Positions 7,472 through 57,079 of a DNA stretch of 64,000 nt are shown here, one piece after another; the first letter of the stretch is position 1; every line of letters starts with the position of its first letter. A model generated the notes under the pieces. The model did not search any database. It worked only from the letters and a program-made list of their open reading frames with translations, and was not told where the DNA came from. Both the position numbers and the translations under genes were made by a program. Where the stretch lies: assembly GCF_000430625.1 (NCBI RefSeq), contig NZ_AUMJ01000018.1, forward strand, positions 1 through 64,000, given 5' to 3'. Source of the DNA: Aneurinibacillus terranovensis DSM 18919. GTDB taxonomy: Bacteria > Bacillota > Bacilli > Aneurinibacillales > Aneurinibacillaceae.

Positions 7472-7592
7472 ATGATAAAAACTCACGGGCGTTGCCGCTC
7501 GTCCTTTTTCTGCAGGGAAGCGAAACGGCCACACGCTCCACATCGAAAAAGCAACGTTCGGCACACTCCCGCGAGTTTTTCTCAGGTGACCC
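7472..7592. repeat. Palindromic intergenic element, short copy (copy A)
   Basis: The ends pair as an imperfect inverted repeat: AAAAACTCACGGG on the left, CCCGCGAGTTTTTCTC on the right, with inner complementary blocks (CTTTTTC with GAAAAAG, GAAGCG with CGCTCC). A second copy lies at 30622-30825 and matches it almost base for base except for an insertion of about 80 bases in the middle. The right end (GGTGACC) overlaps the last codons of the GNAT-like gene that ends at 7582. No open frame. Confidence 0.8.
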
Positions 7593-8232
7593 ATTGATCG
7601 TATGACCTGGTCGTGAGATCGCAGAACATAGGAGTTATTCGCAGATCCTCATTACTTGTAATCTCTATTCCCTTGGCTTTTAAAATAGAGAATCCGGAAT
7701 GGATGTACATCCTTTCTAAACGCCGCTGCTCTTTTTGCAGCGCGGATTTATCCTCCGTGTTGATGCCTACAGGATACGCCTGCAATAAAACCCCGTCCAC
7801 TTCCATTTCCTCTTTGAGTTTTTTAAGAAGCAGCCACAGGTACGCTTTTGCATATCCGATTCCTCTGTACGGTTTAAAAATTTCAAAGTGGTGTAAATAG
7901 GCAATCGTTCCTTTTACCTTTGTTTTAGCTGCATGCGCAAGAGTAAGCGTATTCCTCAGATTCGATAATATCCTCCGCATATCCAAAGATTGTACAGGTA
8001 ATTTATTAATCGAGTAATCCATATAGTCAACGATAGAACCGGAAATCCAATCTTCGTTAAAGATTTGCACCTCGGCCTTACCTACATCATGGGTCGATAG
8101 ATACTGCCCGTTGGCACTTACATCTCCCTTGAATTCGGCGTTTACCATAATCATCTCATTCGTTTGAGTATGTATGTTGATAAAGGGGGCTAACCTTACG
8201 TCGCTTGAAACGGTTTCAGCTTTAGTCGTCAC
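7582..8232 (-). CDS. GNAT-like protein, paralogue 1 (function unknown)
   Basis: About 216 residues. The C-terminal half has the layout of a GNAT acyltransferase: GTIAYLHHFEIFKPYRGIGY (beta-4, then the RGIGYA acyl-CoA pyrophosphate loop), a long helix AYLWLLLKKLKEE, strand VDGVLLQAYPVG, and RRLERMYIHSGFSILKAKGI (the family's terminal YxxxGF segment). The N-terminal half (HTQTNEMIMVNAEFKGDV, then NEDWISGSIVDYMDYS) is a separate beta-rich domain shared only with the paralogues at 8326-8964 and 56364-56999. I prefer GTG 8232 as start, with AAAGGAG upstream; GTG 8241 is too close to that site. The stop codon lies inside a palindromic repeat element. An acetyltransferase activity is inference. Confidence 0.65.
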   Translation of the reverse strand: MTTKAETVSSDVRLAPFINIHTQTNEMIMVNAEFKGDVSANGQYLSTHDVGKAEVQIFNEDWISGSIVDYMDYSINKLPVQSLDMRRILSNLRNTLTLAHAAKTKVKGTIAYLHHFEIFKPYRGIGYAKAYLWLLLKKLKEEMEVDGVLLQAYPVGINTEDKSALQKEQRRLERMYIHSGFSILKAKGIEITSNEDLRITPMFCDLTTRSYDQWVT

Positions 8233-8261
8233 GATCGACACGGCTCCTTTACATAGGAATA

Positions 8262-8311
8262 GTTAAATCGTAACGCTGATTTTACGCCTGATTTGTGTCG
8301 GCACAATGTCA
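8262..8311 (-). promoter_or_regulatory. Conserved operator-like module upstream of GNAT-like paralogue 1
   Basis: Reading on the minus strand: GTCATT... is represented as GACATTGTGCCGACACA, five bases, CAGGCGTAAAATC, then GATTTAAC. It contains TGTGCCGACA (near-palindromic TGTC-NN-GACA) and the inverted pair GTAAAATC/GATTTAAC eight bases apart. Two close copies lie at 8994-9041 and 57031-57079, each upstream of a paralogue of the same protein. Confidence 0.65.
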
Positions 8312-8325
8312 AGAGCCAAACAACA

Positions 8326-8964
8326 CTACACGGAGAATTGTTCAAATGACTTGTTCCGCACATCGCAAAACATATGGTTTATCACATACCCTTCCGAGCT
8401 TTTAACGACCATTTTTTTCGCTTTTAGTAACGCAAAGCCGGATTTTTGATAGATGTTCTCCAACCGTCTCTGTAGTGAAGGTATTTCATTCACTGCATAC
8501 AACCCCACCGGATAAGCCTGTAATAGAATACCGTCTACTTTAATCGTTTCCTTAAGGGCTTTTCCCATTAACCATAAAAACGGCTTGGTTAATCGACTGC
8601 CTCTAAATGCTTGCTTAATTCCAAAATGATACATGAAAGCGATGGACCCTTTGAAATTGATTTTACAATCGTTCAAATACATAAGGGCTATTCTGAGGTC
8701 GTTTAACGCTCTCTTCTTTTCACCTGATACTGAATTGGCACAACGATGAATATAGGAAAGAACCTCCTCCGAACTCCATTGATTATTAATGAGATAAATG
8801 GTTGAATTTCCAATCCTTGCTCTGGCCATGTTATCGTCTTGAACAATCACTCCGTTTAAATTTACATTCAATGTTACAAGTTCTTCTTCTTTCATACTGA
8901 TTTCAATTGAGGGGTTTACTATGGCTTGCTTCATGTTGAAAAGGCCGCTTTGTTCCATCGACAT
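8326..8964 (-). CDS. GNAT-like protein, paralogue 2 (function unknown)
   Basis: This 212-residue paralogue of the preceding gene has the same two-part layout: an N-terminal beta-rich part (VTLNVNLNGVIVQDDN, then NQWSSEEVLSYIHRCA) and a GNAT-like C-terminal part (KGSIAFMYHFGIKQAFRGSR, LTKPFLWLMGKALKET, VDGILLQAYPVG, RRLENIYQKSGFALLKAKK). The acyl-CoA loop is degraded here: FRGSRLTK replaces the RGxGxA pattern of paralogue 1, so CoA binding may be lost. It sits 94 bases upstream of paralogue 1 in the same direction, each copy with its own upstream module, which looks like tandem duplication including the promoter. The ribosome site before ATG 8964 is weak (GGTG). Confidence 0.6.
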   Translation of the reverse strand: MSMEQSGLFNMKQAIVNPSIEISMKEEELVTLNVNLNGVIVQDDNMARARIGNSTIYLINNQWSSEEVLSYIHRCANSVSGEKKRALNDLRIALMYLNDCKINFKGSIAFMYHFGIKQAFRGSRLTKPFLWLMGKALKETIKVDGILLQAYPVGLYAVNEIPSLQRRLENIYQKSGFALLKAKKMVVKSSEGYVINHMFCDVRNKSFEQFSV

Positions 8965-8993
8965 ACGTTTTCACACCCAACACTGAGTTAATA

Positions 8994-9041
8994 GTAAAAT
9001 CTAGATGGAATTTTACTCCTGTGATGTGTCGGGACAATGAC
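8994..9041 (-). promoter_or_regulatory. Conserved operator-like module upstream of GNAT-like paralogue 2
   Basis: Minus strand: GTCATTGTCCCGACACA, five bases, CAGGAGTAAAATT, eight bases, GATTTTAC (counted from the inverted pair GTAAAAT/ATTTTAC). It holds the perfect palindrome-like TGTCCCGACA. Same architecture as the modules at 8262-8311 and 57031-57079. Confidence 0.65.
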
Positions 9042-9087
9042 GGCGGGGATTTTTTTAAAAATGTTATTGTGATAACGCGATATATTT

Positions 9088-9143
9088 TATAATAAAAGGA
9101 AAGCGATATGTTGTTGGAGGAGGGGATAAATCATAAGCGATGA
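9088..9143 (+). promoter_or_regulatory. Candidate -10 box and 11-codon leader frame before the coiled-coil gene
   Basis: TATAAT at 9088-9093 has no good -35 box 17 bases upstream (TATTGT). An AAAGGA ribosome site then precedes ATG 9108, which opens an 11-codon frame (MLLEEGINHKR) ending TGA 9141. The strong ribosome site GGAGGAGGGG of the main gene lies inside this leader, and the main frame is +1 relative to it. Whether the leader is translated is unknown. Confidence 0.35.
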
Positions 9144-9489
9144 ACTTTTAAAGCAAATCGCGGCCGGTATACAGCAAGTAAATCAGCGCCTGGATAGGCT
9201 GGAGAAGCGCTTGGATAAGCTGGAGAATCGCCTGGAAGAACTGGAGACCGGACACCGGGATTTAAAAGCAGAGGTTGTGGAGCGTTTTGATAAAGTGGAC
9301 TTGCAGTTTGCAGACATTCGCCGCTTTGCAGAGCGTATCAATACGGGAGCCACCGCCGGTGATGAAAAATTGCTTGAGATGGTGCAAAACATCCAAGAAA
9401 ACATGGTTACTAAATCCGACCTGAAATATTTTGACCTCAAAACAACAGAACATGATCGGAAAATTTTCAAACTAAAACAAAAGCAATAA
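9133..9489 (+). CDS. Coiled-coil protein whose start codon appears to be ATA
   Basis: Behind a near-perfect ribosome site (GGAGGAGGGG, 9116-9125) and seven bases, the frame reads ISDELLKQIAAGIQQVNQRL and continues DRLEKRLDKLENRLEELETG. The first codon sits where ATG should be but is ATA (9133), as if ATG had mutated; the first in-frame ATG is 9211 and has no ribosome site. The product would be 118 residues, almost wholly coiled coil (heptads RLDRLEKRLDKLENRLEEL). It is the same style as the protein at 4249-4536. The 3' half overlaps, on the other strand, the anomalous tail of the ptuB frame. Function unknown; it may be silent or weakly translated. Confidence 0.5.
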   Translation: MSDELLKQIAAGIQQVNQRLDRLEKRLDKLENRLEELETGHRDLKAEVVERFDKVDLQFADIRRFAERINTGATAGDEKLLEMVQNIQENMVTKSDLKYFDLKTTEHDRKIFKLKQKQ

Positions 9490-10121
9490 AGAAAAATACC
9501 ATTGGGAATATTTGGATTTACCAGTTCGCACAATAGAGCCCGATATACTTTTTCGTCATCAGTACTTGAGGTTTTTTTCAAACGATCAATATACATTAGT
9601 ACAACTTTCCTAACTCTTTTTCTAGCTTTAACTAATGGCTCCCGGTTAAGGTCGGTATGTTCAATCGTCGTTTTTCCTCTTCCAGGATCGGATAGAGGCT
9701 CAGCTCTACATGTAATAACATCAAAGAAAAAATGCTTCTCGGGTTTATCAACCGAAGGATCAAGTATGGGATATGTATCATCCCATTGGGTTCCTTTTGC
9801 AACATTACATTGCGCACAAGCCCAGTGAAGATTTTCCCAATTAAAAGATAGTTCATGAAACCGCGGATCTGATTTTGGTTTACGATGTTCGATATGTGGA
9901 TAATCCGCTACACCGATCCCTACCTCACAGTAGCAGCATTTCTCTCCATACATTTCTTCAAGCTGCTCTTTAACATCTTGCTGCTTATATTTGTCTTTGT
10001 AGGAAGAATTGACCTTGCTATAACTACCACAGTTAGCTATTTGATCTAAGAGTTGTCTCTTCCATTCCTCCGCGTTATCTTTTAAGCTTTTTGGAATATT
10101 TCCCCTTGATACTTTAATCAT
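9183..10121 (-). CDS. ptuB: PtuB-like HNH nuclease of a Septu defence pair, with an abnormal C-terminus
   Basis: The first about 205 residues are an HNH endonuclease of the TIGR02646/PtuB type. CCYCE and CAQC supply the zinc-knuckle cysteines, and the HNH core is HIEHRKPK, then NWENLHWACAQCNVAKGT. It overlaps the end of ptuA (ATG 10121, inside the last codons), so the two are translationally coupled. In Septu systems PtuA and PtuB form a complex that restricts phage. After ELVNPN (near 9500) the family resemblance ends. The frame then runs on through the opposite strand of the coiled-coil gene to 9183, giving a Ser/Arg/Phe-rich tail of about 105 residues that cannot be native. The true end of the gene was probably lost by recombination; activity is uncertain. 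Confidence 0.75.
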   Translation of the reverse strand: MIKVSRGNIPKSLKDNAEEWKRQLLDQIANCGSYSKVNSSYKDKYKQQDVKEQLEEMYGEKCCYCEVGIGVADYPHIEHRKPKSDPRFHELSFNWENLHWACAQCNVAKGTQWDDTYPILDPSVDKPEKHFFFDVITCRAEPLSDPGRGKTTIEHTDLNREPLVKARKRVRKVVLMYIDRLKKTSSTDDEKVYRALLCELVNPNIPNGIFLYCFCFSLKIFRSCSVVLRSKYFRSDLVTMFSWMFCTISSNFSSPAVAPVLIRSAKRRMSANCKSTLSKRSTTSAFKSRCPVSSSSRRFSSLSKRFSSLSRR

Positions 10122-11448
10122 TATCGTCAACACCTAATGCTTTTTTGCCTATAGCCTCGATTTTAGCTATAGTTACTGCAGGATCTTCAGGAGGAAGAAT
10201 TTTATATAAATGCTTGGTAGTTCGTTGCAATTGTTCCTTTTCCTCTGAACTTAACTCGCCCTTTCTGCTTTTCAAGTAGAGTCTCTCTATAAGTTCAATT
10301 TGCCCAATAACTTCTGGCTCCCTTGGATACGTATTCATCACTTTAGTTAGTATATCTTCTACTAACCATCCATAAGGTGCTTTTTCGTTTTGCTGATCAA
10401 GATCACCATTATCTTGCTGTAAGTTTATAATTTCTCCTTCTTTACAAGATGAAATTACAATGGGTGCATGAGTAGTTGCAATAAACTGGACGTTAGGAAA
10501 TGTCCGTTTTAAATCGTTAACTATGCGCCACTGCCATTGTGGATGAAGATGTAGATCAAGTTCGTCAATTAGAACGATCCCCGGAGTTTCCCTAGTCGCT
10601 TTATCCCTCAATTGTGGATTAAGAATAGCCATTCTATAAGCTATATCAGCAACCATACCGATTACACTTCGATAACCAGCACTCATAATTCTTAAGGGAA
10701 TAGATTTACTTCCCATTTCAACAAGTACTTCCTCTTCCTCAAAATCATAATAAATATTGGCCTCTTGACTATCTGACAAGCCTTTCATAAATTCATTTAC
10801 TGCCTTTACTACCGAAGTTAATTCTCCTACGATTATATTCTTTTGCAGTTGTATTGTGGTCATTCTACGTAACCAATTTACAAACAATTTGATATTTGAT
10901 TCTGCCTCCAAACAATCTGTATATCCAATAAATCTAGATAAATCTTCTTTTTTAAAAGGATCATACCATTTGTTTTTCTTTTGCGAAAATAACCTTCCGG
11001 CGCTTTGATAAGAAATTATAGGCAGAACAACGTCTTGGTCTTTATTTCTAATTTTTCTTTGTAATTCTTGGGCATATTGTGAAATTAATTTTGCTTTTGT
11101 TCTACTAGTACGTCCATTTTGAACCTTTTCTCTAGATCGGGTCCAAACAATCTCTCTTTCATTAATTGTTCCAGTGCTTTCTATAGTGACAGGAACTTGT
11201 CGCTCTTTTGTAACCGTTGCATCCCCAACTCTGTCCCATTCCTTGCGAATTTCGTCAATATATATATTTCTAGACTGTACTCCATCAAGACCTGATAAAT
11301 ATCCTCCTAGTGCAACGCCTACTGCTTCTAAGATGGATGTTTTCCCTGTACCGTTATTTCCAATTATTAAGGTGAATTGTTTATCAAACTCAAACTCGAC
11401 ATCTTTAAACATTTTAAAGTTTTTTATTTTTATTTTGCTTATAATCAC
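10114..11448 (-). CDS. ptuA: PtuA-like AAA/SMC-type ATPase of a Septu defence pair
   Basis: This 444-residue ABC/SMC-like ATPase has Walker A GNNGTGKTS at about residues 30-38, a coiled-coil-bearing middle, the signature-like MSAGYRSVIGMVADI, Walker B with LIDELDLHLHPQWQW, and a D-loop/H-switch ATTHAPIVISS. This layout, with an HNH gene overlapping its 3' end, is that of Septu type I (PtuAB). I start it at GTG 11448 behind GAAGGTGG; an in-frame TTG 36 bases upstream has no ribosome site. The region is noticeably more AT-rich than the flanking housekeeping genes, which suits acquisition by transfer. Some retron- and OLD-associated ATPases look similar, but the HNH partner favours Septu. Confidence 0.8.
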   Translation of the reverse strand: MIISKIKIKNFKMFKDVEFEFDKQFTLIIGNNGTGKTSILEAVGVALGGYLSGLDGVQSRNIYIDEIRKEWDRVGDATVTKERQVPVTIESTGTINEREIVWTRSREKVQNGRTSRTKAKLISQYAQELQRKIRNKDQDVVLPIISYQSAGRLFSQKKNKWYDPFKKEDLSRFIGYTDCLEAESNIKLFVNWLRRMTTIQLQKNIIVGELTSVVKAVNEFMKGLSDSQEANIYYDFEEEEVLVEMGSKSIPLRIMSAGYRSVIGMVADIAYRMAILNPQLRDKATRETPGIVLIDELDLHLHPQWQWRIVNDLKRTFPNVQFIATTHAPIVISSCKEGEIINLQQDNGDLDQQNEKAPYGWLVEDILTKVMNTYPREPEVIGQIELIERLYLKSRKGELSSEEKEQLQRTTKHLYKILPPEDPAVTIAKIEAIGKKALGVDDND

Positions 11449-11516
11449 TCTACAACCACCTTCCAAAAAACTACAATCACTCAATCTTATTAAGCTATTA
11501 TATCTGTGACAAAAAA

Positions 11517-11581
11517 AAAATAAAGCGTCTGCCGCTTATAAAGAGTTCATTGAAACTCAATATGACAGACGCTTTATTTGT
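11517..11581. terminator. Terminator between pstB and ptuA
   Basis: AAATAAAGCGTCTG and CAGACGCTTTATTT form a 14-bp stem with A/T runs on both sides. It lies downstream of pstB (minus) and upstream of ptuA. Confidence 0.75.
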
Positions 11582-11631
11582 ATTTAGCTTATATTACACT
11601 GCAAACCACACTGCTTTCTTTAACTTTCCGG

Positions 11632-12393
11632 TCAACCAAAACGTCCCATAATATAATCTTCCGTTCTGGTATCTGAAGGCTTGGTAAACAATGCCTCTGT
11701 CCGTTGGAATTCAATGAGTTCACCCGCCAGCATAAATGCTGTCGTATCCGATGCCCGGGCTGCCTGGTGCATGTTATGGGTCACCATAAAAATGGAATAT
11801 TTCTCTTTCAGCTCCTGCAGCAGTTCTTCAATTTTCGTTGTGGATATGGGGTCCAGGGCCGAAGTAGGTTCATCCATTAAAATGACGTCGGGTTCTACTG
11901 CAATACAGCGGGCGATACAAAGGCGCTGCTGTTGTCCACCTGACAGCGCTAAAGCAGGTGTATGGAGCCTGTCTTTTACCTCGTCCCATAGGGCCACATC
12001 CTTCAGGCTTGTTTCAACAATCTCATCCAATTTTGACTTTTTATTAATCCCGTGTGTCCGGGGGCCAAACACAATATTTTCATAGATTGATTTGGGAAAT
12101 GGCGACGGTTTTTGAAACACCATGCCTACAACCGTTCGCAGTTCCTCAAGATTAACATCTTTATCATAAATGTTTACCTGATTATAATTAATTTTTCCTT
12201 GTACCTCTACATCGGGAATTAAATCAACCATCCGATTCAGCGTTTTTAAAAAGGTGGATTTTCCGCAGCCTGAAGGCCCGATAATCGCGGTGATTTCATT
12301 TCGCTTTATATTTATATTTATATTTTTTAAAGCATGGTTAGATCCATAGTATAGATTTAAATTCTCCACTTCAAAAACATGTTCCTGCAGCAT
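11632..12393 (-). CDS. pstB: Phosphate ABC transporter ATP-binding protein PstB
   Basis: This 253-residue ATPase drives high-affinity phosphate import with PstC and PstA and the binding protein PstS. Walker A is GPSGCGKST, the signature is LSGGQQQR, Walker B is [12 protein letters not shown], and the H-loop is MVTHNMHQA. Full length for the family. The start is ATG 12393 behind GGAGGGGG. Unlike the usual pstSCAB order, pstB lies at the other end and is transcribed away from pstS-C-A. It is preceded by a three-unit PhoP-box-like array and TATAAT, so it is likely induced by phosphate starvation on its own. No second pstB is in the window. Confidence 0.95.
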
Positions 12394-12456
12394 GTAATCC
12401 GTCCCCCTCCGTTTTGTATTGATTTAATAGCGGTATTTAAATAAATCATAAAAACT

Positions 12457-12500
12457 ATTATAAAGGCAATCTTGTAAATTTACTGTAAATTAATCGTGAA
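12457..12500 (-). promoter_or_regulatory. PhoP-box-like array and -10 box driving pstB
   Basis: On the minus strand TTCACG (12500-12495), TTTACA (12489-12484) and TTTACA (12478-12473) repeat with an exact 11-base period, followed by TATAAT (12462-12457). Bacillus PhoP boxes are TT(A/T/C)ACA repeats with 5-base spacers, which this fits. The +1 site would be near 12450, and the pstB start codon is at 12393. Confidence 0.65.
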
Positions 12501-12644
12501 TATTTACCTAGTCCTTATGGATTTATATTATGTCATCTCTTTACAAAAAATAAATAATTATCACATAAAATAATCAAATAGGCTTAATGTTTCAGAATTA
12601 TAGTAATTGTTGACCTGTTTAATATGATACATAAGGAGGAAGCA

Positions 12645-13844
12645 ATGAAACATAATCTGTTGGGCACGGTAATTGCCACTTCTATTGCAGCTTCGGCAAC
12701 TGTCCTGCCATTTACGTATGCTTATGCATCTCCGGCTAAGTCTCCGGTAGTTAAAAAAACTGCCAAGCCCGTTGTAAAGCAATCTGCCAAGCTCGTAGTT
12801 AAAACACCGATCAAGCCACCGGTTAAACCGGTTGTCAAACCGGAGCCTGTTCTACTTGGCGGAATGAATGAAAACCCGCGCTGGCTTAATGCTAATGAGA
12901 TGATTGTTTCACACAAAACGGACGAGGCTCAAACGGACTATTTACTGAATGTTACAACGAAGAAATTTGAACCTGTATTGTCCGGCATATCTAATGCCAG
13001 CGAATTGGTTGTTTCCCCGGACGGGAAACAAGCCGCTTTTATTGATGAATCTGGAGCACTATTTGTTGTTAATTTAACTACGAAACAGGTCAAACAAATC
13101 AATTCCGACGACAAACCGAAAGCAAGCCTTGTATGGTCTTTGTCCGGTGATAATCTCTATTACATTGAAGCGGATAAAGGTGTAGTGATTGCTTCCGCTT
13201 CCCTAACTGATGGCAAGGTTACAAAAGTAGTGGACGACCAGATGGACTTTAAGACGGACTTGCATCTCTCCGCAGATGGAAAAACGCTGCTGTATACCGT
13301 AGATAAGAGCGGGAAAGTAGACGCGGCAGCTCCGGCGGAAGATGATCCGAAGATGCTTGAGCAGCAGGTTAAAGTTGACACAACTGGCACTGAATCGCAA
13401 TTATTTTCTTTCGATCTTACACAAAAAGGTGCCAAAGCTGTACAAGTAACGAAAGACAAAGAAAATAAAGTACATGCTAATTTCTTGCCTGACGGTTCTA
13501 TCCTCTATTTAAGCGTTGACTCCACAAAAGAGAGCAACAACACTGCCGTAAAATTAATAAGCCAAGACGGGAAAACAAGCAAAGATATAATCGCCGATAT
13601 GGATATTATTCAACCGCTGGTGACAAACGACGGGAAACTTATCCTGCTCGTAAACACCGGTACGGGAAAAGCGGTTTATACTGTTGAAAATGGAACAAAG
13701 AAAAAACTCGCCGATCTAAGCGCCAATGCGGAACAACTATCCATTTCACCGGATGGCAAGAATATTGCCGTTGTGTCCTCAACGGAAACAGGTTCAAAAA
13801 TTTCCGTTGTATCAGGAAGCAAATTGATTGATATCACAAAATAA
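12645..13844 (+). CDS. Secreted TolB-like beta-propeller protein, first gene of the pst cluster
   Basis: The 399-residue protein has a signal peptide (MKHNLLGTVIATSIAASATV, cut after YAYA), then a Lys/Pro-rich linker (about residues 30-70, repeated VKPPVKP-type units). The rest is a propeller of repeats of the TolB/WD40-like kind: LVVSPDGKQAAFIDESGALF, LHLSADGKTLLYTVDKSGK, LSISPDGKNIAVVSSTETG. No catalytic motif is visible. The ATG at 12645 has AAGGAGGAAGC before it; the ATG at 12624 would include the ribosome site. It precedes pstS by 25 bases, so the two are probably one transcript. A role in phosphate capture or wall function is inference. Confidence 0.7.
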   Translation: MKHNLLGTVIATSIAASATVLPFTYAYASPAKSPVVKKTAKPVVKQSAKLVVKTPIKPPVKPVVKPEPVLLGGMNENPRWLNANEMIVSHKTDEAQTDYLLNVTTKKFEPVLSGISNASELVVSPDGKQAAFIDESGALFVVNLTTKQVKQINSDDKPKASLVWSLSGDNLYYIEADKGVVIASASLTDGKVTKVVDDQMDFKTDLHLSADGKTLLYTVDKSGKVDAAAPAEDDPKMLEQQVKVDTTGTESQLFSFDLTQKGAKAVQVTKDKENKVHANFLPDGSILYLSVDSTKESNNTAVKLISQDGKTSKDIIADMDIIQPLVTNDGKLILLVNTGTGKAVYTVENGTKKKLADLSANAEQLSISPDGKNIAVVSSTETGSKISVVSGSKLIDITK

Positions 13845-13869
13845 GATCAACGAAAAGAGGGAATCAACA

Positions 13870-14730
13870 ATGAATTTGTTTAAAAAAGTTTCAACGATTA
13901 TTATGGCTTCCGCCCTTTTGATGAGTTCTGCGCTTGGCATCGCCCAGCCGTCAACTGCAGACGCAGCTGTTACCGGTAAAGTTACGATTGCCGGTTCATC
14001 CGCACTTCTTCCATTAAGCAGGCAAGCTATCAATGAATTCAAACGTACGAATCCCGGAGTGGTGATTACCGCTTCTGCGTCTAGCTCTATCAGCGGCCCG
14101 CAATCGGTGTTGAGCGGGGCAGCAACCATTGGCGCGTGTGACTGGAATGCGACAAAAGCTGTACCTGGCTTTAAAGCTTTCCCTGGATTAGTTGCCCATA
14201 AAGTATCTGTCACTCCTTTCGCGACAATTGTCAATAAAAGCGTAAACGTGGACAATCTGACAACCAGCCAGCTGCAAGGCATCTTCAGCGGAAAGATTAC
14301 AAACTGGAAGCAGGTTGGCGGACAAAACGCTCCGATTGTCGTTATCAATCGCGCCTTCGGTTCCGGAACACGCGTTAACTACCAGATTAAAGCGCTCAAA
14401 GGCGCCACCATGAAAGGTGCACCACAATACAAAGAAGTAAAATCCAGCGGCGATATGAAAACGGCAGTGAGCACAACACCTAACGCTATCGGATATATTG
14501 ACCTCGTTTATGTAACAGGTGATTTGAAAGCTGTAAAATATAACGGTGTTGCCCCAACCACACAAAACGTTATCAACGGTAAATATCCTGTTTGGGAATA
14601 TGGATACTATCTGACAAAAGGACAACCTACAGGCGCAACGAAAGCATTCATCGATTATGTAACGAGCAGCAAATTCCAGCAAGGTTCCTTACGTGCAATG
14701 AAATTCATTCCGGTAACTAGCGTCCATTAA
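13870..14730 (+). CDS. pstS: Phosphate-binding protein PstS
   Basis: About 286 residues. A signal peptide (MNLFKKVSTIIMASALLMSS, ending near ADAA) has no lipobox cysteine visible, so the protein may be free or wall-held rather than lipid-anchored as in many Bacilli. The mature part begins VTGKVTIAGSSALLPLSRQA, the phosphate-binding loop SSALLPL of this family. SASSSISGP and GSGTRVNYQI carry the other ligand residues, and NAIGYIDLVYV follows. The start is ATG 13870 behind GAGGG. A hairpin sits between pstS and pstC and may let pstS be made in excess of the membrane parts. Confidence 0.9.
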   Translation: MNLFKKVSTIIMASALLMSSALGIAQPSTADAAVTGKVTIAGSSALLPLSRQAINEFKRTNPGVVITASASSSISGPQSVLSGAATIGACDWNATKAVPGFKAFPGLVAHKVSVTPFATIVNKSVNVDNLTTSQLQGIFSGKITNWKQVGGQNAPIVVINRAFGSGTRVNYQIKALKGATMKGAPQYKEVKSSGDMKTAVSTTPNAIGYIDLVYVTGDLKAVKYNGVAPTTQNVINGKYPVWEYGYYLTKGQPTGATKAFIDYVTSSKFQQGSLRAMKFIPVTSVH

Positions 14731-14750
14731 TTTCGAAAAAAGAGGACCAT

Positions 14751-14782
14751 ATCCAGCCCCTACTAACTATAGGGGCTGGATT
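14751..14782 (+). terminator. Hairpin between pstS and pstC (possible attenuator)
   Basis: ATCCAGCCCCTA and TAGGGGCTGGAT form a 12-bp stem with a short loop, followed by TGCTTT rather than a full T-run. It would suit partial termination or mRNA stabilisation. Confidence 0.55.
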
Positions 14783-14802
14783 GCTTTACAAGGAGGAGCA
14801 AT

Positions 14803-15780
14803 ATGAACGAGGCTCAAATGAATCTTACGAATGAATCAGCCGTAACTTCATCTAAATCAAGCATACCTTCATCGGTGAATAAAGAATTAACCAACCACCC
14901 GTCAAGATTTGGACGGTCCTTTCGCCTGCGGCTGACAAACCGCATGTTTCAATATTTTTGCCTGTTAAGTGGTATTATCGTCTGTGTTGCCTTATTTTCC
15001 ATTATTTATTTCGTGGGTAAAACAGGTTTCCTTACCTTTTTAAACGTTACATTTAAAACCTACTTCTTCTCCATCAACTGGTCGCCGGAGGAAAACCAAT
15101 TCGGAGCAGCGGGCATTATTATCAATACTTTATCGCTAACCGCTTTAACGCTTGTTATTGCCACTCCGCTGTCCATTGGTATCGCTATTTTTATAGCTGA
15201 AATCGCACCGCACTGGGTGAAAGGCATCCTCCGTCCTGTTCTCGACCTGCTCGTAGGTATTCCTTCCGTTGTTTATGGATATCTGGGGTTAACCGTCCTT
15301 ATTCCATACATTCGGGAATGGACCGGCCAGGAGATGGGAGACGGGCTGTTTGCTGCCGGACTTGTCCTGGCTATCATGGTACTGCCCACCATCACCCGGA
15401 TTGCAGATGATTCCATTACCTTTGTACCGAATCAATACCGGGAAGCGGCTATAGCGTTAGGCGCTACCCGCTTACAAAGAATTTGGCGGGTCATTCTTCC
15501 GGCCGCGAAGCAGGGAATAATGACTGCGATTATTTTGGGAATGGCAAGAGCGATTGGGGAGACGATGGCTGTCGTTATGGTTATCGGAAACACACCGCAA
15601 CTGGCAAAAAGCCTGTTCACGCCGACTTCCGTACTAACCAGCAATATTGTGATGCAGATACTAAACGTTCAATACGATTCAACCTGGAATTATGCGCTCT
15701 ATATGATGGCTTTCCTGCTGCTGTTTATATCCCTGCTGCTGATTGTGATCATCCGCGTGATTCGTCCTAAAGGAGCATAG
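14803..15780 (+). CDS. pstC: Phosphate ABC transporter permease PstC
   Basis: This 325-residue inner-membrane permease has six predicted helices after a soluble N-terminal stretch of about 45 residues (Ser/Asn-rich, STSSKSSIPSSV-like). The cytoplasmic EAA loop, where PstB docks, is YREAAIALGATRLQRIWRVI. The helix IGETMAVVMVIGNTPQ is typical of PstC. ATG 14803 follows AAGGAGGAGC. pstA starts six bases after the stop. It works with PstA as the transmembrane heterodimer. Confidence 0.93.
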   Translation: MNEAQMNLTNESAVTSSKSSIPSSVNKELTNHPSRFGRSFRLRLTNRMFQYFCLLSGIIVCVALFSIIYFVGKTGFLTFLNVTFKTYFFSINWSPEENQFGAAGIIINTLSLTALTLVIATPLSIGIAIFIAEIAPHWVKGILRPVLDLLVGIPSVVYGYLGLTVLIPYIREWTGQEMGDGLFAAGLVLAIMVLPTITRIADDSITFVPNQYREAAIALGATRLQRIWRVILPAAKQGIMTAIILGMARAIGETMAVVMVIGNTPQLAKSLFTPTSVLTSNIVMQILNVQYDSTWNYALYMMAFLLLFISLLLIVIIRVIRPKGA

Positions 15781-15785
15781 ATCCT

Positions 15786-16670
15786 ATGAGACAGGTTACT
15801 ATAAAAAATAAGTGGTCTTTTAGCAAAACATTGGATAAAATAGCAACGTTCTTTTTTTGGGCTATGGGGGCTGCGGTTATTCTTTTTATTGTGTGGTTGC
15901 TTTACACCATACTTCATAAAGGGCTGCCGGGCATCACGCTTCACTTTCTTACATCCCCTGCAGCAGATGTTGACGCTGGCGGGGGGATCGGTCCTGTGTT
16001 ATTTAATTCCTTTTATGTGCTTTTCCTCTCGCTGCTATTTTCTGTGCCTGTGGGCATCGGCGCCGGCATATATCTTGGAGAATACGCCCCTGACAATAAA
16101 TTTACGGCAACGATTCGCATCTGCGTGGAAAGCCTTGCGTCCGTTCCTTCCATTGTTTTTGGCTTATTCGGGATGGCTTTATTTGTCAACTATTTTCAAG
16201 TCGGGCTCACCATTCTGGGAGGCTCGATTAGCCTTGCTCTATTAAATTTACCGGTGTTGACAAGGGTTACTGAAGAGTCGATTCGCGCTGTGCCGCTTGA
16301 AATGCGGGAAGCAGCCTACGCGCTGGGTACGACAAAATTTCAATGCATTCGCAAGGTGGTTTTTCCGGCCGCCTTTAACGGAATTATGACCGGTGTAAGC
16401 CTGGTGGCCAGCCGCGCATACGGCGAATCCGCGGTTATCCTGCTGGCGGGTGGCACTTCTACCTCAGGATCGCTGTGGGATTTTAATTTATTCTCGCCCG
16501 GTGCGACACTCGCTGTTCATCTCTGGTATGTCCAATCCGAAGCCATTGTGAGCGACGCGCGGGAGATTGCCGATAGATCGGCTGCCGTACTCGTGTTTGT
16601 CGTGTTACTGCTTAACTTTTTGCTGCGCATCCCGGTGTGGATAAACAGACGATTTACCTGGAAGCAATAA
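15786..16670 (+). CDS. pstA: Phosphate ABC transporter permease PstA
   Basis: This 294-residue permease is the partner of PstC. Six helices are seen, with the first at about residues 20-45 (FFFWAMGAAVILFIVWLLYT). The EAA loop is MREAAYALGTTKFQCIRKVV, and RAYGESAVILLAGG is the family's later helix motif. Its ribosome site (AAAGGAG) lies inside the last codons of pstC, so the two are coupled. It is the last gene before a strong terminator; pstB, normally next, is absent from this side of the cluster. Confidence 0.93.
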   Translation: MRQVTIKNKWSFSKTLDKIATFFFWAMGAAVILFIVWLLYTILHKGLPGITLHFLTSPAADVDAGGGIGPVLFNSFYVLFLSLLFSVPVGIGAGIYLGEYAPDNKFTATIRICVESLASVPSIVFGLFGMALFVNYFQVGLTILGGSISLALLNLPVLTRVTEESIRAVPLEMREAAYALGTTKFQCIRKVVFPAAFNGIMTGVSLVASRAYGESAVILLAGGTSTSGSLWDFNLFSPGATLAVHLWYVQSEAIVSDAREIADRSAAVLVFVVLLLNFLLRIPVWINRRFTWKQ

Positions 16671-22350: not shown

Positions 22351-22351
22351 T

Positions 22352-48882: not shown

Positions 48883-48885
48883 CTA

Positions 48886-50056: not shown

Positions 50057-50320
<264 letters not shown>

Positions 50321-50354
50321 TTATAGTAAATAAGGGTTAATAACAATAAGAAGT

Positions 50355-51146
50355 CTAGTGTTCATCCACAACTTTTTGTGAGATGTATACCAGCGCAAGC
50401 GTTGTAAAGATATAAGCCTGTACAGCACCTACGAATATGGAATAGCCCAGCCAGATAATGAGCGGAAGACTCACGGCGAACACAGAACCTGCCAGCATGA
50501 AGGCGATGAGAACCTCGCCGGCGAAAATGTTACCGAATAGCCGCAATGGAAGAGTTAACGGTTTAATGATAAATTCTTCCATGATATGGAGAAGGACCAT
50601 TGGCCACGAAGGCTCGAACCAGTGTTTAATATACGCTCCCGGATTTTTGCGAATCCCCAGAATATGGGCGTAAATGAGCACCAGGAAGGCCAAACCGAAG
50701 GTCACGCTTGGAGACGAAGTAGGTGATTTAAACCACTCTACGTTCACCTCTTTTATTTTCTCACCATTATGAACCACTTCGCGAGCATATTTTGCGAACT
50801 GTTCCTGTGTCAATCCGATAGCGGGAACCGGTTTTGTGTACGAAACATCAACCAGAGCAATAACACCAAGCTGATTACCGATGAATATAAACAGGAATAA
50901 AGTGAGGGCCAAGGTAACAAATTTGGAACTTGTCTTTGCATCCATGAATTGTCCGGCAATTCCCCGAATAAAATCAATCACCCATTCGAAGAAATTTTGC
51001 CAGCCCTTCGGAACTCCTGCAGTCATGTTTCTCGTTGCGATAAAAACGACCAGCAAAACGAGCAATGCGGTAAAAACAGACATGATTACTGTGGATATAT
51101 CAAATACCAGACCAGCTATCGTTATAGACGGAGGAAAATTTTCCAT
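50355..51146 (-). CDS. atpB: F1Fo ATP synthase subunit a
   Basis: A 263-residue stator subunit with the proton half-channels. The essential Arg is in LTLPLRLFGNIFAGEVLIAF. The helix following, AVQAYIFTTLALVYISQKVV, is typical. A soluble loop at about 125-160 (AREVVHNGEKIKEVNVEWFK) is longer than in E. coli but usual for Bacilli. ATG 51146, after the end of atpI. Confidence 0.95.
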   Translation of the reverse strand: MENFPPSITIAGLVFDISTVIMSVFTALLVLLVVFIATRNMTAGVPKGWQNFFEWVIDFIRGIAGQFMDAKTSSKFVTLALTLFLFIFIGNQLGVIALVDVSYTKPVPAIGLTQEQFAKYAREVVHNGEKIKEVNVEWFKSPTSSPSVTFGLAFLVLIYAHILGIRKNPGAYIKHWFEPSWPMVLLHIMEEFIIKPLTLPLRLFGNIFAGEVLIAFMLAGSVFAVSLPLIIWLGYSIFVGAVQAYIFTTLALVYISQKVVDEH

Positions 51147-51176
51147 TTTTCTAATTTCACCCCTTTCCTATGTGTT

Positions 51177-51554
51177 TTACTTTTTGGAATATGAATATCG
51201 AATGATAGCGTGTGACAACGCTGCCATTTGGACCGCGAACAGCCCAACAAGCACCCCGTAGAAAGAAAAAAGATGGGGTAAACGAATGGATACATAAATA
51301 GCAAAGCCGGCGAGGAGGAGGCGTTGCATCATCCCGATCCCTCTTGCCCGTTTGCCGGGTGTGACGGCAGCCTCTCCGGCCTGCATCGTCTTTACATAAA
51401 GAATAAGGCCATTGAGAATGCTGACAAAAGTGCCTAGAAGTAAACCTTGAAAAAAAACACGCTGTGGCATAAATAGCCAGAGCAGGACAACCACAACAAA
51501 TAAGTAAAACGTGTAGCGTGCAATTTGTTTGATCGAGGAAGCGAATTCTTCCAT
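51177..51554 (-). CDS. atpI: ATP synthase subunit I
   Basis: A 125-residue membrane protein with four helices (YTFYLFVVVVLLWLFMPQRV, then FFQGLLLGTFVSILNGLIL). AtpI helps assembly of the c-ring or Mg uptake in other Bacilli; not essential. It lies one base after the AtpZ stop. Sequence divergence is normal for this subunit. Confidence 0.9.
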   Translation of the reverse strand: MEEFASSIKQIARYTFYLFVVVVLLWLFMPQRVFFQGLLLGTFVSILNGLILYVKTMQAGEAAVTPGKRARGIGMMQRLLLAGFAIYVSIRLPHLFSFYGVLVGLFAVQMAALSHAIIRYSYSKK

Positions 51555-51555
51555 G

Positions 51556-51774
51556 TCACTCTCCGAAAAACTGTTTAATCAGGAAGAAAATCCCTGTAAT
51601 TCCCAGTGCCAAGCCAAATAATACGCCAACAAGCAAAAACCAAGGCTCCGTATGTAACCAGCGATCAAGCGAACGCCCGGCCCAGAAACCAAATATAACA
51701 GATACAGCCAATTCTACTCCGATTGTCCCCACTAACGCAAATGCACGCAAAGGCCCGTTTTTATCCTGCTTCAC
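51556..51774 (-). CDS. atpZ: AtpZ/AtpI-family small membrane protein
   Basis: A 72-residue protein with two helices (VGTIGVELAVSVIFGFWAGR, then FLLVGVLFGLALGITGIFFL) separated by a short charged loop (SLDRWLHTEP). AtpZ acts with AtpI as a divalent-cation channel/assembly factor in some Bacilli. I start at GTG 51774, with AGGAGG seven bases upstream; the ATG-started longer frame would run into that ribosome site. First gene of the atp operon. Confidence 0.85.
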   Translation of the reverse strand: MKQDKNGPLRAFALVGTIGVELAVSVIFGFWAGRSLDRWLHTEPWFLLVGVLFGLALGITGIFFLIKQFFGE

Positions 51775-51908
51775 ATTCGGTTCCTCCTGCCATGTGCGGA
51801 TTAGGTACCCCATTTTACTCAAAAAAAAATCTGTCGAAACCGACTGCTTAATAAAAAGAGGTTAGGAACAATTGAATATTCGTTGTATCGTATGCATTGT
51901 CCCTAACC

Positions 51909-51937
51909 ATAGTACTTAAGCATTTATTTTTTGTCAA
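51909..51937 (-). promoter_or_regulatory. Sigma-A promoter of the atp operon
   Basis: Minus strand TTGACA (51937-51932), 17 bases, TACTAT (51914-51909). The -35 is perfect. It leaves a leader of about 130 bases before atpZ. The remaining 51775-52044 gap shows nothing else definite. Confidence 0.75.
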
Positions 51938-52044
51938 TAAGTCGAAAAAGGATTGTCACCATTTAGACAAAAAAATTGATTTCAGACAGTTTCTTTTACT
52001 ATTTTTCCGTTTTTTTATTGACATATTCCAATTCATCTACTCGC

Positions 52045-53229
52045 TTACATTTCTACGATGGTCGCTACACCCTGCCCCCCACCGATGCAGAGTGTTGCTA
52101 ATCCGTATTTTGAGCCGCGACGTTTCATTTCATATAAAAGAGTAACGAGAATGCGCGCCCCGCTTGCCCCGATTGGATGCCCAAGTGCAACCGCCCCGCC
52201 GTTGACATTTAATTTTTCCTTCGGGATGCTCAAATCACGGCCGACAGCCAGGGATTGCGCTGCGAATGCTTCGTTTGCTTCAATCAAATCCATGTCTTCG
52301 ATAGCAAGACCGGCTTTTTCCATCGCCTTTTTCGTAGCAGGAACAGGCCCGATCCCCATGATTTTCGGATCCACTCCGGCACTGGCATTTGCCCGGATGA
52401 CAGCCATCGGCTTAATCCCCATCGCTTCTGCGCGCTGGCGGCTCATTAAGACAAGCGCTGCGGCTCCGTCATTAATTCCGGAAGCATTGCCTGCTGTAAC
52501 CGACCCGTCTTTTTTAAATGCGGGTTTTAGTTTGCTCAATTGTTCCGCCGTTACACCCGCACGCGGGAATTCGTCGGTATCAAAAACAACGGGTTCCCCT
52601 CTGCGCTGCGGAATTTCCACTGGAACAATTTCCTCTTTAAATTTGCCTTCTTTTATGGCAGTTTCTGCCTTTTGCTGGCTCCATGCTGCAAACTCATCCT
52701 GCTCTTCCCGTGTCAGCCCGTATTGCTCGCAAATATTCTCAGCCGTCATTCCCATATGGTAGTTGTTAAACGCACACATAAGACCGTCTACCAGCATACT
52801 GTCGACTACTTTCTGGTCGCCCATGCGGTATCCGGTACGCGCATTGGGCAGGAGATAAGGTGCCATGCTCATGTTTTCCATTCCGCCGGCTACGACAATT
52901 TCAGCATCGCCATTTTGGATGGCCTGTGCCGCGAGATGAACAGCTTTTAATCCCGAACCGCACAGCTTATTAATCGCCATAGACGGAACTTCGTAGGGCA
53001 GGCCGGCCTTCATCGCCGCCTGGCGCGCCGGCCCCTGTCCGGTTCCGGCCTGCAGAATGTTACCCATAATCACTTCATCCACCTGGTCACCCGGAACTCC
53101 TGCACGGCGCAGAGCCTCCTTGATCACAATCCCACCGAGTTCTGCAGCGGAGGTATTGCTTAACGTTCCAAGGAAATTGCCGATAGCGGTACGGACAGCA
53201 CTTACGATAACTACCTCTGGTTTACTCAA
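52045..53229 (-). CDS. Acetyl-CoA C-acetyltransferase (thiolase)
   Basis: A 394-residue thiolase II that condenses two acetyl-CoA to acetoacetyl-CoA or runs in reverse. The nucleophilic Cys is in [20 protein letters not shown], the His in [20 protein letters not shown], and the second Cys in [18 protein letters not shown]. It starts with TTG 53229 behind GAGGGAGAGGGGA. It stands alone, without a visible 3-hydroxybutyryl-CoA dehydrogenase nearby. Whether it serves PHB, butanoate or mevalonate cannot be told from here. Confidence 0.92.
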
Positions 53230-53416
53230 AATACGGTCCCCTCTCCCTCATATTTTTTTAAAAAAATACGTCTACTATATTCGCTGAAAATCAGGTATCT
53301 CCTGCAAATTTGTAGAAAATTTAGATGAGAGGGATTTTTCGCCCGTTTTGATAATTTTCAACCGTGGCTTTCACTTACTACTTTCATTCGCTACTTTTAG
53401 CTGGCGTACCAACCGG

Positions 53417-56260
53417 TTACTTTAAGAGTCGACTAATAATCACAAGCGCTTCGGCCCGGGTAGACAGACGACCCGGCAGGAAACTTCCGTCCGATCCATA
53501 GATATACCCTTTTCTGGTCAACACTGCTACGTCATCGCGCGCAAAAGACGGAATTTTATTCGCATCCTTATACGTTTGCGCATGGGTTGCCGGGACATTG
53601 AGGTTTCCGTACCCGTGCTTCAGGCAGTTGTACATAATGACAGCCATTTCTGCCCTGCTAATTGGTTTATTGGCCTGGAACGTACCATCCGTATAACCGG
53701 TAATGATCTTTTTGTTCACAGCAGCCTGTACGGATGCCTTAGCATACGTCGGAATTGCATCCTTGAAGACGGATTTGCCCACAGATGTCTTTCCTTTTGT
53801 CCAACCGAATGCCCGGTCAAGGAAAGTAACAAACTGCCCACGTGTTACGGACAGTTCCGGTCCCATCTTCGTTGATGAAACTCCGCTTACAATGCCTTTT
53901 TTATACATCGAAAGCAGTGTGGCTTCGGCCCAGTGTCCTTTAATATCAGAAAAGCCTTGAGCATTTCCCGAACCATTATTTCCCGGGACATCTTTTACAG
54001 GCGCAGACGGCACCGGTGCCGGGCTTGGCGATGCCGGGGCAGGCGCAACGGCCGGCGCAGCGAAAGCCGGATATTTCAACGACAGTTCGTCAAAATAGAG
54101 CGTGCCTTTGGTTGAAAGTGTAGAATCTTCCGCATCAACTACATCCAGGCTGCGAAGTGTAACCGGGTAGGCTATATTTGTCGGGAAGTCCGCCTGTACC
54201 TCTTTCCAGCCTGTCCAATTCACCTGATCGGCTAAACTTACCGCTTGAACATTGCCTTTTGCGTCAGCCACTTCAGCTTGTAGAGAATGGCCGCTGTTGT
54301 CTCCATACACCCAGAGTTTAAGTCCAAGCGGCTGATCGGGCAGTTTCTGACCCGATGCTCCGAGTTTCCCATAGACAAATCTAGCAGTCGTGTTTGGCGC
54401 ACCGGCAAAGTCATAGCTTAGGCGAAGGGCTTTCGCGGATGATTTCACCGGTTCATTCCCCGTCGTCTGACGGAAAGACCCGTCTGCACTCATGCTTCCA
54501 GGGTTTGTCGTATACCCCAGCCCACTCATTGCGTCTGTATTATTCCATAGCACCCATTTCGTTCCGACATAAACCGGTACTGTGCGGGTCAGGTCTCCAT
54601 ATTTTACAGTTAACGTGCCCTGTGCCTGCTTGCTGCCGGAAGAAATAGTAAAGCCATTCACGGTTCCGACATTGGGTGTCACAGAAACCTGCACCGAATC
54701 TGCCGTTGTCGGAATATTGCCGTTATCTGTTTTTAAGGAGACCGAGAAATTGGTTTGGTCGTTTGTATTAAGCGTAATCGGGTTCGGGTTGATAATCAGG
54801 TCCTTCACGCCGCCAACAGCCACAGTGAAGTCCTTCTTGATCCCTTTGTATTCCCCGTGGATTTGGATTTGACCACTTCTGGTCGGGGTAAACACGTTAT
54901 TAGTAAAGGAGCCGTCCGCGGGACTGTCTGTTGACCAGGAAATATCGGCCGCATTTAAATCGTACGGAAGATAATGAGTATCGTAAGCTTTGACGTTGAT
55001 AGCCAGCGGTTTGCCTACCGTATCCTCCAGCTTGGTTGTCACTAAGAAATTAGCGAAGTCTCCCGGGGGTGCCGTATTAAATACAGCGAGCCCTGTCGGG
55101 ACCTTGCGCATCGGCGCATTTAGCTCCGGGGTATTAAGCAGCGTCGTTTCTTTATCTCCCGGGTAACGGGCAACCATTGTGGTGGATCCGCCCCCGTCAA
55201 AGTTAGAAGCGTTATAAGCTCCAAGCTGCTGCATCACTTGAGCCAGTTCATCGAGTGTAACCCCCCGGCTTCTTGTCGGCCCTTCCACGGCTACGATATA
55301 AACCGTTTTGCCATCCTGGGAAACACCGACAGCCGTACGAGGCAAATCGCCGCTAATAGACTCTGAAGGTATATTCGTCAATGCCTGTCCATCTTGAACG
55401 AGTCTCAGATTCCCGCCAACCGCACTCACCAGCTGCCGGTCACCAAGCGAAGAGTCGACCGTCGTCTGAACAGAGGTGGTTACACTGTCGCCTACCTTCA
55501 GATGGTCGAGCAGGAACTGCTTACCTGCCCCGTCTCCCCAGAGGACATATCCGCCAACCGGAATGGTATAACCCGGTTGTCCGGTGCGGATATCTGTTAC
55601 CGTATCACCGACAACCAGCATTTCAACCGCATCTTCATATCCCTTAATGGCGCCAAGGCTGGTTGTTCCGAAGTCGCTCGTATACATATTGATTTTACCA
55701 AGATGACTTTTATCGTTGGTCGGATTATACTCTTCCTTGTTCAATCCCTGGATCACAGCCGTGGCTCCATCCGGTGTTTGCAGCATGCCCGCAAATCCCA
55801 TGTGGGCAATGATTGCAGTCTGATCGCTTAGAACACCGAACGAATACCAGCTATTAATTTTTCCCATAGAAGAAACGAGCTTGCCCTGATCTAAAACAAT
55901 ACCAAATGGCGCGCCTCTTCTGTCCATCCGGAAAAAATCAGCGTTCACCGCGGCAATTGCGCCACGTTCATCGGCCATCCCTTTTACCGTCTGCTTATCG
56001 GTTAATTTGCCGTTCGTACCGTAAACAGGACCGATTTGCACATACTTATTGTTCAGGTCTACCTGCGTAACAAAAACTCTTGAATTCTTGCCTCCGATTA
56101 CTAGATTATATTGGCTAAGCGTAGTTCCTTCTCCTATTGGTGTGTCGGACAGCTTCTGCAAGGTTAGCCCCGCCGCCAGCCCAACACCAGGAAACTGCAG
56201 CGTCAACAGCAATGTTACAACCATAAACGCTGCCAGTGTCCTGTGCAAAACTTTGGACAT
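53417..56260 (-). CDS. SLH-anchored phosphodiester glycosidase family protein
   Basis: A 947-residue exported protein. Signal peptide at 1-29 (AAFMVVTLLLTLQFPGVGLA). Residues about 85-395 are the NAGPA-type phosphodiester-glycosidase domain (AAVNADFFRMDRRGAPFGIV, then AVEGPTRSRGVTLDELAQVM and SNFDGGGSTTMVARYPG). Residues 395-560 are Ig-like (DISWSTDSPADGSFTNNVFT), and 565-735 a carbohydrate-binding-like beta domain (SAKALRLSYDFAGAPNTTAR). A Pro/Ala linker follows, then three SLH domains from about 770 (FSDIKGHWAEATLLSMYKKG, then VSRAEM-like repeats). Relatives uncover or cut GlcNAc-1-phospho-linked sugars. Substrate here is unknown; wall polymer is plausible. Confidence 0.85.
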   Translation of the reverse strand: MSKVLHRTLAAFMVVTLLLTLQFPGVGLAAGLTLQKLSDTPIGEGTTLSQYNLVIGGKNSRVFVTQVDLNNKYVQIGPVYGTNGKLTDKQTVKGMADERGAIAAVNADFFRMDRRGAPFGIVLDQGKLVSSMGKINSWYSFGVLSDQTAIIAHMGFAGMLQTPDGATAVIQGLNKEEYNPTNDKSHLGKINMYTSDFGTTSLGAIKGYEDAVEMLVVGDTVTDIRTGQPGYTIPVGGYVLWGDGAGKQFLLDHLKVGDSVTTSVQTTVDSSLGDRQLVSAVGGNLRLVQDGQALTNIPSESISGDLPRTAVGVSQDGKTVYIVAVEGPTRSRGVTLDELAQVMQQLGAYNASNFDGGGSTTMVARYPGDKETTLLNTPELNAPMRKVPTGLAVFNTAPPGDFANFLVTTKLEDTVGKPLAINVKAYDTHYLPYDLNAADISWSTDSPADGSFTNNVFTPTRSGQIQIHGEYKGIKKDFTVAVGGVKDLIINPNPITLNTNDQTNFSVSLKTDNGNIPTTADSVQVSVTPNVGTVNGFTISSGSKQAQGTLTVKYGDLTRTVPVYVGTKWVLWNNTDAMSGLGYTTNPGSMSADGSFRQTTGNEPVKSSAKALRLSYDFAGAPNTTARFVYGKLGASGQKLPDQPLGLKLWVYGDNSGHSLQAEVADAKGNVQAVSLADQVNWTGWKEVQADFPTNIAYPVTLRSLDVVDAEDSTLSTKGTLYFDELSLKYPAFAAPAVAPAPASPSPAPVPSAPVKDVPGNNGSGNAQGFSDIKGHWAEATLLSMYKKGIVSGVSSTKMGPELSVTRGQFVTFLDRAFGWTKGKTSVGKSVFKDAIPTYAKASVQAAVNKKIITGYTDGTFQANKPISRAEMAVIMYNCLKHGYGNLNVPATHAQTYKDANKIPSFARDDVAVLTRKGYIYGSDGSFLPGRLSTRAEALVIISRLLK

Positions 56261-56363
56261 TTTATATGTTCCTCCTCGTCTATGTATTGTTTCTCTGTCT
56301 CTACCAATAGTTAGACGCGAGGAGATAGGGAATAGTTTCTAATTTTAATAGGATGGATGCTCT

Positions 56364-56999
56364 CTATTTGAACGTGGTAAAATATTTGGTTGATAGATTA
56401 CAGTACATATATTTAACCTGTAATCCTGCATCCGTGATAATCGCAGATTTGGATTTTATGACAGAAAATCCGGACTTTGTATAGATTTTCTCTAAACGCT
56501 TTTGTTCTTTCTTAAGCTCTTCCGGAGAGAATTTTCCTACAGGGTGAACTTGCAATAAAACGGTGTCTACTTCCATTTGTTCCTTAAGCATTTTAAGAAT
56601 TAGCCACATATACGCTTTCGTTAATCCTCTCCCTCTAAAAGGTGTAACTATCCCCAAATGATGCAAGTAGGCAATCGTCCCTTTGCTGCTGATTGGGGTT
56701 GCAGCTATGTATCTGAGTGCGTTACTTACATTCATTAAATCCTGCTGTTTTACCGGATCAGAATTTTTAATCGAATACGCCAGGTAGTCGAGTAACGAAC
56801 CTGAAATCCACTCTTCATTTACGATTTGCAAGCTGGCCTTTCCTACTTTTTCTGTTGACTGATGCACACCGTTTCGTGTTACTTCCCCGGTTAATTCAAT
56901 TGTTAGAACGATTGTGTCGTCTGTTTGTGTATGTACTTCAATCGAAGGTGTAAAAATCAAATCGTGTAAGCCATTTGGCTGATTGTTATTGAGTATCAT
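56364..56999 (-). CDS. GNAT-like protein, paralogue 3 (function unknown)
   Basis: About 211 residues. It has the same design as the two genes at 7.6-9.0 kb. The N-terminal beta-rich domain has SIEVHTQTDDTIVLTIELTG and NEEWISGSLLDYLAYSIKN. The GNAT-like part has KGTIAYLHHLGIVTPFRGRG, LTKAYMWLILKMLKEQMEVD, TVLLQVHPVG and KRLEKIYTKSGFSVIKSKSA. It is closer to paralogue 1 than to 2, and its loop RGRGLT is better preserved than in 2. I start at ATG 56999 behind AAGGGAG. The upstream module at 57031-57079 is the same as at the other two loci. Confidence 0.65.
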   Translation of the reverse strand: MILNNNQPNGLHDLIFTPSIEVHTQTDDTIVLTIELTGEVTRNGVHQSTEKVGKASLQIVNEEWISGSLLDYLAYSIKNSDPVKQQDLMNVSNALRYIAATPISSKGTIAYLHHLGIVTPFRGRGLTKAYMWLILKMLKEQMEVDTVLLQVHPVGKFSPEELKKEQKRLEKIYTKSGFSVIKSKSAIITDAGLQVKYMYCNLSTKYFTTFK

Positions 57000-57030
57000 T
57001 TGCCATACTCCCTTCACGCGATGAGGAACT

Positions 57031-57079
57031 GTAAAATCTTCTCACCGATTTTACGCCTGCTTTGTGTCAGGATAATGAC
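57031..57079 (-). promoter_or_regulatory. Conserved operator-like module upstream of GNAT-like paralogue 3
   Basis: Minus strand GTCATTATCCTGACACA, five bases, CAGGCGTAAAATC, eight bases, GATTTTAC. The inverted pair GTAAAATC/GATTTTAC is perfect here. Third copy of the module seen at 8262 and 8994. Confidence 0.7.

Follow-up and report, generated by a model that had tools for sequence, protein, structure and literature searches.

Three genes encoding GNAT-like proteins lie in the 64,000-nt stretch of the spore-former Aneurinibacillus terranovensis DSM 18919 that was analysed here (contig NZ_AUMJ01000018.1, positions 1 to 64,000; the window), each preceded by the same module of ~34 bp. The question raised by this locus is whether the module represents a private control element of an undescribed GNAT system or a promoter that other genes use as well. 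The three genes are these.

7582..8241, minus strand: paralogue 1 (P0001), GNAT-like, acyl-CoA loop RGIGYA intact
8326..8964, minus strand: paralogue 2 (P0002), GNAT-like, loop glycine lost (RGSRLT)
56364..57017, minus strand: paralogue 3 (P0003), GNAT-like, loop RGRGLT, a conservative change

The proteins are homologous and 212-219 aa long, the other two being 33 and 47% identical to P0001, and a search of the whole 4.25-Mb genome gave these three paralogues and no further members. For P0003, a start at ATG 56999 (behind AAGGGAG) appears more likely than one at GTG 57017, because the latter has little room downstream of the -10. The answer we favour, at a probability of about 0.72, is that the module serves as promoter for a two-component regulon with envelope- or secretion-stress content, controlled by a response regulator encoded elsewhere in the genome (C35) and having the GNAT-like proteins as effectors.

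The sharing of an upstream module by all three paralogues, noticed in the first-pass annotation, was borne out by pattern searches: the module as first written has 3 matches in the window (0 expected in shuffles), and its strict form has 3 matches at ≤3 mismatches genome-wide (4.25 Mb), with 0 for the reversed control. The accompanying claim of diverged proteins under a nearly fixed control sequence also holds, given an identity of 33-47% versus the same module at all three genes. The short CAGGNGTAAAAT part alone has 6 occurrences, 3 of them elsewhere than at the paralogues. When the DNA preceding related genes in other genomes is compared, a conserved core emerges, YTGACAT-N4-YTGACAY-N10-TANNAT, that differs from the string originally written for the module. 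It consists of two head-to-tail heptamers with an 11-bp period, then exactly 10 nt and a -10 box. At the three paralogues the core is located as follows.

8279..8312, minus strand: box and -10 of paralogue 1, TTGACAT-N4-CCGACAC-N10-TAAAAT (score 19.9, p=0.0005)
9010..9043, minus strand: box and -10 of paralogue 2, CCGTCAT-N4-CCGACAC-N10-TAAAAT (score 14.7, p=0.001)
57048..57081, minus strand: box and -10 of paralogue 3, TTGTCAT-N4-CTGACAC-N10-TAAAAT (score 27.3, p=0.0005)

These scores derive from a weight matrix of 14 training sites, chosen by related patterns and none of them in front of a GNAT gene, with p values computed against dinucleotide shuffles. The held-out matrix recovers 8/8 GNAT promoters in the host's taxonomic family, each at p≤0.001: three in the host genome (G000), two in G001, which we infer to be the congener Aneurinibacillus sp. 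Ricciae_BoGa-3, two in G007 and one in G005. Upstream of the more distant GNAT genes of G047 and G173 it gives no significant box. Across ~361,000 positions of G000 and G001 (both strands), scores >14 are confined to the training sites and two GNAT sites. Of 30 box sites selected regardless of the -10, 11 have TAnnnT at spacing 10, and no other spacing accounts for more than 2.

An arrangement of two heptamers followed by a spaced -10 is established for promoters of OmpR/PhoB-family response regulators, and the box displays two features of such target promoters, tandem half-sites at a period of ~11 bp and a fixed distance to the -10. Read from its sequence, the module is a promoter with a response-regulator site, not a private control element. 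Most likely, the two tandem heptamers are bound by an OmpR/PhoB-family response regulator in its phosphorylated form and take the place of the -35 element; the bound regulator would recruit housekeeping RNA polymerase, which would engage the -10 ten bases further downstream.

The genes behind the box are diverse. Counts of the box plus -10 pattern were 7 versus 1 for the reversed control in G000 and 10 versus 1 in G001. In both genomes the box precedes an HlyD+RND efflux operon, an operon for a secreted coiled-coil protein, a response regulator and a histidine kinase, a His-rich 95-aa protein and small membrane proteins. A secreted protein of 163-165 aa stands behind it in G000 and in G002, a genome of another genus in which the box also precedes a coiled-coil gene. 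Annotations read from sequence add a secreted peptidase-like protein in G000 and, in G001, an HtrA-type protease and a lipoprotein together with an SLH-like secreted protein. The scan of the genome for the module and the genes behind it had been set as a test beforehand, and its return of unrelated genes identifies a promoter class; the box is therefore a regulon promoter and not private to the GNAT genes. The notion of a self-contained GNAT system is accordingly not supported, the RND pump, HtrA, the two-component operon and the small secreted or membrane proteins all having the same class of promoter. The three GNAT-like genes appear to belong to an undescribed cell-envelope stress regulon, for which a limited literature search found no description. 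A cell-envelope or secretion stress response would fit the two-component operon, the HlyD+RND pair and the small proteins that are secreted or sit in the membrane; the regulon of the congener would add HtrA and possibly small RNAs.

A separate observation in G001 concerns four boxes (L156, L157, L158, L203) that are followed after ~50-90 nt by hairpin-plus-T-run terminators. Folding of three of these terminators gave structures of greater stability than those of shuffled sequences (z about -2.4 to -2.7). The short transcripts so delimited are possible candidates for regulator-driven small RNAs.

The best candidate for the controller of the GNAT promoters is the C35 response regulator of the host genome, a 225-aa protein of receiver and winged helix. 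It is encoded beside a box, in the box-carrying operon of secreted coiled-coil protein, response regulator and histidine kinase. A box is found at the regulator's own locus in G000, G001, G047, G113, G123, G143 and G393. In the last five of these, which represent three other families, it lies in the intergenic region adjoining the orthologue (each p=0.001). In G047, G113, G123 and G143 its direction is towards a divergent hexapeptide-transferase-like gene and not towards the regulator; G393 has a second paralogue of the regulator, located after a box-bearing gene for a secreted coiled-coil protein. At loci L161, L176, L177 and L178 (two other families), the regulator was seen to be divergent from a box-bearing gene for a hexapeptide-repeat acetyltransferase-like protein. 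The association has exceptions. No box precedes the homologue in G384, and G002, G005 and G007 contain boxes and no orthologue of the regulator (best matches 41-44% identical); another regulator would therefore have to read the boxes there. What computation shows is the architecture of the box, its conservation, its co-occurrence with these genes and its place beside the regulator's orthologues; binding and activation by the C35 regulator, along with the signal of the regulon, we infer.

Reading of the box by another OmpR-family regulator of the same genome is the rival to which these exceptions lend substance. The host has 12 matches to such regulators at E≤1e-40, the C35 protein included, boxes persist in genomes devoid of its orthologue, and the box-bearing coiled-coil gene of G002 lies between two other two-component pairs. 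We nonetheless consider it unlikely, for the box stands beside a C35-type regulator gene in four families and heads the C35-type operon in two species. Assignment of the box to PhoP/PhoR, which would place the GNAT genes in the phosphate regulon, has the layout in its favour (the Pho box bound by PhoB/PhoP likewise has two head-to-tail heptamers, a 4-bp spacer and a distance of 10 bp to the -10), as well as a pstS-type operon at 13828-16670 in the window and the boxes of G005 and G007, which read TTAACAT and thus come nearer the PhoP hexamer. However, the pstS-type genes of G000 and G001 have TTAACA/TTAAAA repeats or no visible box in place of the module, which sets the present system apart from PhoB/PhoP and led us to reject a plain Pho regulon. 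With the other box genes not being phosphate genes and the C35 regulator scoring below the cut-off of all PhoB models, a phosphate assignment seems distinctly improbable.

Two further explanations fare worse. The module could have been retained simply through duplication of the three genes together with their upstream DNA, no regulation being needed, and it is true that the strict form, comprising CAGGNGTAAAAT and the GTAAAATC/GATTTTAC pair, occurs at the host's three copies only. Proteins just 33-47% identical and a core box met again both before related genes in other genomes and before unrelated ones argue against this; the held-out matrix largely refutes it, leaving mere duplication very improbable. 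The first-pass annotation had suggested one regulator or an alternative sigma factor. Its regulator part stands in outline, the site being kept beyond the genome and having the architecture of a regulator site. The sigma part is not supported: a conserved bipartite sequence might suggest recognition by an ECF-type factor, but a tandem direct repeat of 11-bp period, at 10 nt from a -10 that resembles TATAAT and varies like a housekeeping -10, makes such a factor scarcely credible, and it was rejected on that architecture.

The same annotation had described an inverted pair behind the module. All three copies have it, two of them in imperfect form, and it always overlaps the -10.

8262..8285, no strand assigned: inverted pair GTAAAATC/GATTTAAC, overlapping the -10, imperfect
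8994..9016, no strand assigned: inverted pair GTAAAATT/GATTTTAC, overlapping the -10, imperfect
57031..57054, no strand assigned: inverted pair GTAAAATC/GATTTTAC, overlapping the -10, perfect

The pair is missing in front of related genes elsewhere and was seen in the host genome only. An RNA hairpin was dismissed because the first arm falls inside the -10 box and would not be transcribed. The pair may be an operator or incidental. A different element, AGAAAAAGGACGAGCGGCAACGCCCG(T/C)GAGTTTTT, was observed at 7470-7590 and again close upstream of the box at G000 C30:42496 (L025); it looks like a repeated terminator or a palindromic repeat element.

As regards the proteins, a GNAT-like fold is supported by modelling. 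The AlphaFold2 model from nine sequences (pLDDT 81, pTM 0.81) has three strands, forming a predicted three-stranded meander in the N-terminal part, two helices, then b4-a3-b5-a4-b. Foldseek against the PDB matched it to AAC(6') and SpeG acetyltransferases (best E 5e-5). The GNAT fold earlier claimed for the C-terminal domain thus agrees with fold prediction, as a predicted structure. The canonical GNAT order is b1-a1-a2-b2-b3. The likeness to AAC(6') and the SpeG/BltD polyamine acetyltransferases resides in the predicted GNAT core, the RxxGx(A/T) loop and a Y-x3-GF motif; the difference is in the three long strands before the two helices and in the modest TM of 0.4-0.5. BltD, PaiA and SpeG are listed, BltD as an acetyltransferase, in PMC11254643. 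The acyl-CoA pyrophosphate loop, R/QxxGxG/A, is kept by most members in the RxxGx(A/T) form, the last position being T or A. P0002 and the member in G173 have lost its glycine. In the GNAT C-terminal motif, where the general-acid tyrosine of GNATs is situated, the tyrosine and GF are invariant in 9/9 aligned members. The view that the loop decays differently in each copy has thus to be narrowed: intact in P0001 and conservatively changed in P0003, it has lost its glycine, among the three window copies, in P0002 only. The suggested division into enzyme and regulator or decoy is likewise possible for P0002 only. With the putative acetyltransferase activity, the GNAT-like proteins would act in the cytoplasm as effectors, acetylating a small molecule or peptide with an amine group alongside its export.

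The GNAT-like family is a rare, uncharacterised branch. Searches of Pfam, NCBIfam, PHROG and PADLOC gave no family match above cut-off, with Pfam Acetyltransf_1 reached below threshold by P0001 (E 0.026) and P0003 (E 0.0084), and at E≤1e-5 the family was detected in 7/400 Bacilli genomes, 1 of the 7 being a weak generic GNAT match. A tree of ten members, weakly supported, joins P0003 with a G001 member (88/87) and does not place the other paralogues firmly. We discarded a phage or plasmid origin, as tblastn with P0003 gave no matches and the viral-contig matches were short generic GNAT stretches, and an anti-phage role of the GNAT proteins, as PADLOC had no match. The GNAT gene of G047 follows closely after a HlyD/RND operon in the same orientation, and G007 has an RND gene ~4.4 kb from the GNAT gene; these neighbourhoods make a link between the family and efflux plausible. 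The Blt/BltD pair of Bacillus, in which a polyamine acetyltransferase is paired with an efflux pump, offers a model for that link, not evidence.

Control of envelope stress by a secreted helical protein and an OmpR-type pair is well known in Gram-negatives, CpxRA and BaeSR being the envelope-stress regulons of enterobacteria. These share with the present system an OmpR-family regulator with membrane kinase, a box at its own locus and a regulon with RND efflux, an HtrA-type protease and a small secreted helical protein. They differ in that the host here is Gram-positive, the box sequence is another and the C35 regulator remains under the CpxR and BaeR cut-offs (150 and 179 bits versus 341 and 380). 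Identity of the secreted coiled-coil protein with CpxP/Spy was set aside, since its model (pLDDT 73, from 3 sequences) has no fold match in the PDB at E≤0.001. The CssRS system of Bacillus secretion stress is similar in placing an HtrA-type protease of Bacilli under two-component control, as in G001; the likeness is through HtrA, and the box is at HtrA in G001 only, as far as found. SwrC-type RND exporters occur in Gram-positives (PMC12096827). The HlyD+RND pair in a Bacilli genome resembles them, with general RND models alone matching here. The control element is of an ordinary kind, a response-regulator promoter, in an apparently undescribed regulon. A wider picture, put forward tentatively and as a minority view even to ourselves, would be a Cpx-like Gram-positive envelope-stress regulon in several Bacilli families, its outputs being the RND pump, HtrA, regulator-driven small RNAs and the rare GNAT-like family of rearranged strand order, with P0002 as a non-catalytic partner.

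Our analysis has importance in turning three mystery paralogues into a regulon that can be tested and has a named candidate for its regulator. The 34-bp box is usable for scanning other Bacilli, and a rare acetyltransferase-like family would become tied to efflux and envelope stress.

The surroundings of the paralogues deserve brief mention. The first GNAT locus looks syntenic between the host genome and G001, because the gene order beside the GNAT-like gene agrees: 2145-8964 and L130:968-9462 contain glycosyltransferase-4, WecG/TagA-type and SLH-protein genes in identical order, each set adjoining a GNAT-like gene. Next to paralogue 2, at 9183-11484 (minus strand), overlapping genes for an AAA ATPase and an HNH nuclease constitute a Septu-type anti-phage defence system (PtuA match E 5e-146; PtuB match E 8e-49). 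A weaker box-like site at 12573-12606 (minus strand; score 12.5) lies ~180 bp ahead of the ABC-transporter ATPase gene 11632-12393, which is a possible further member of the regulon in the window.
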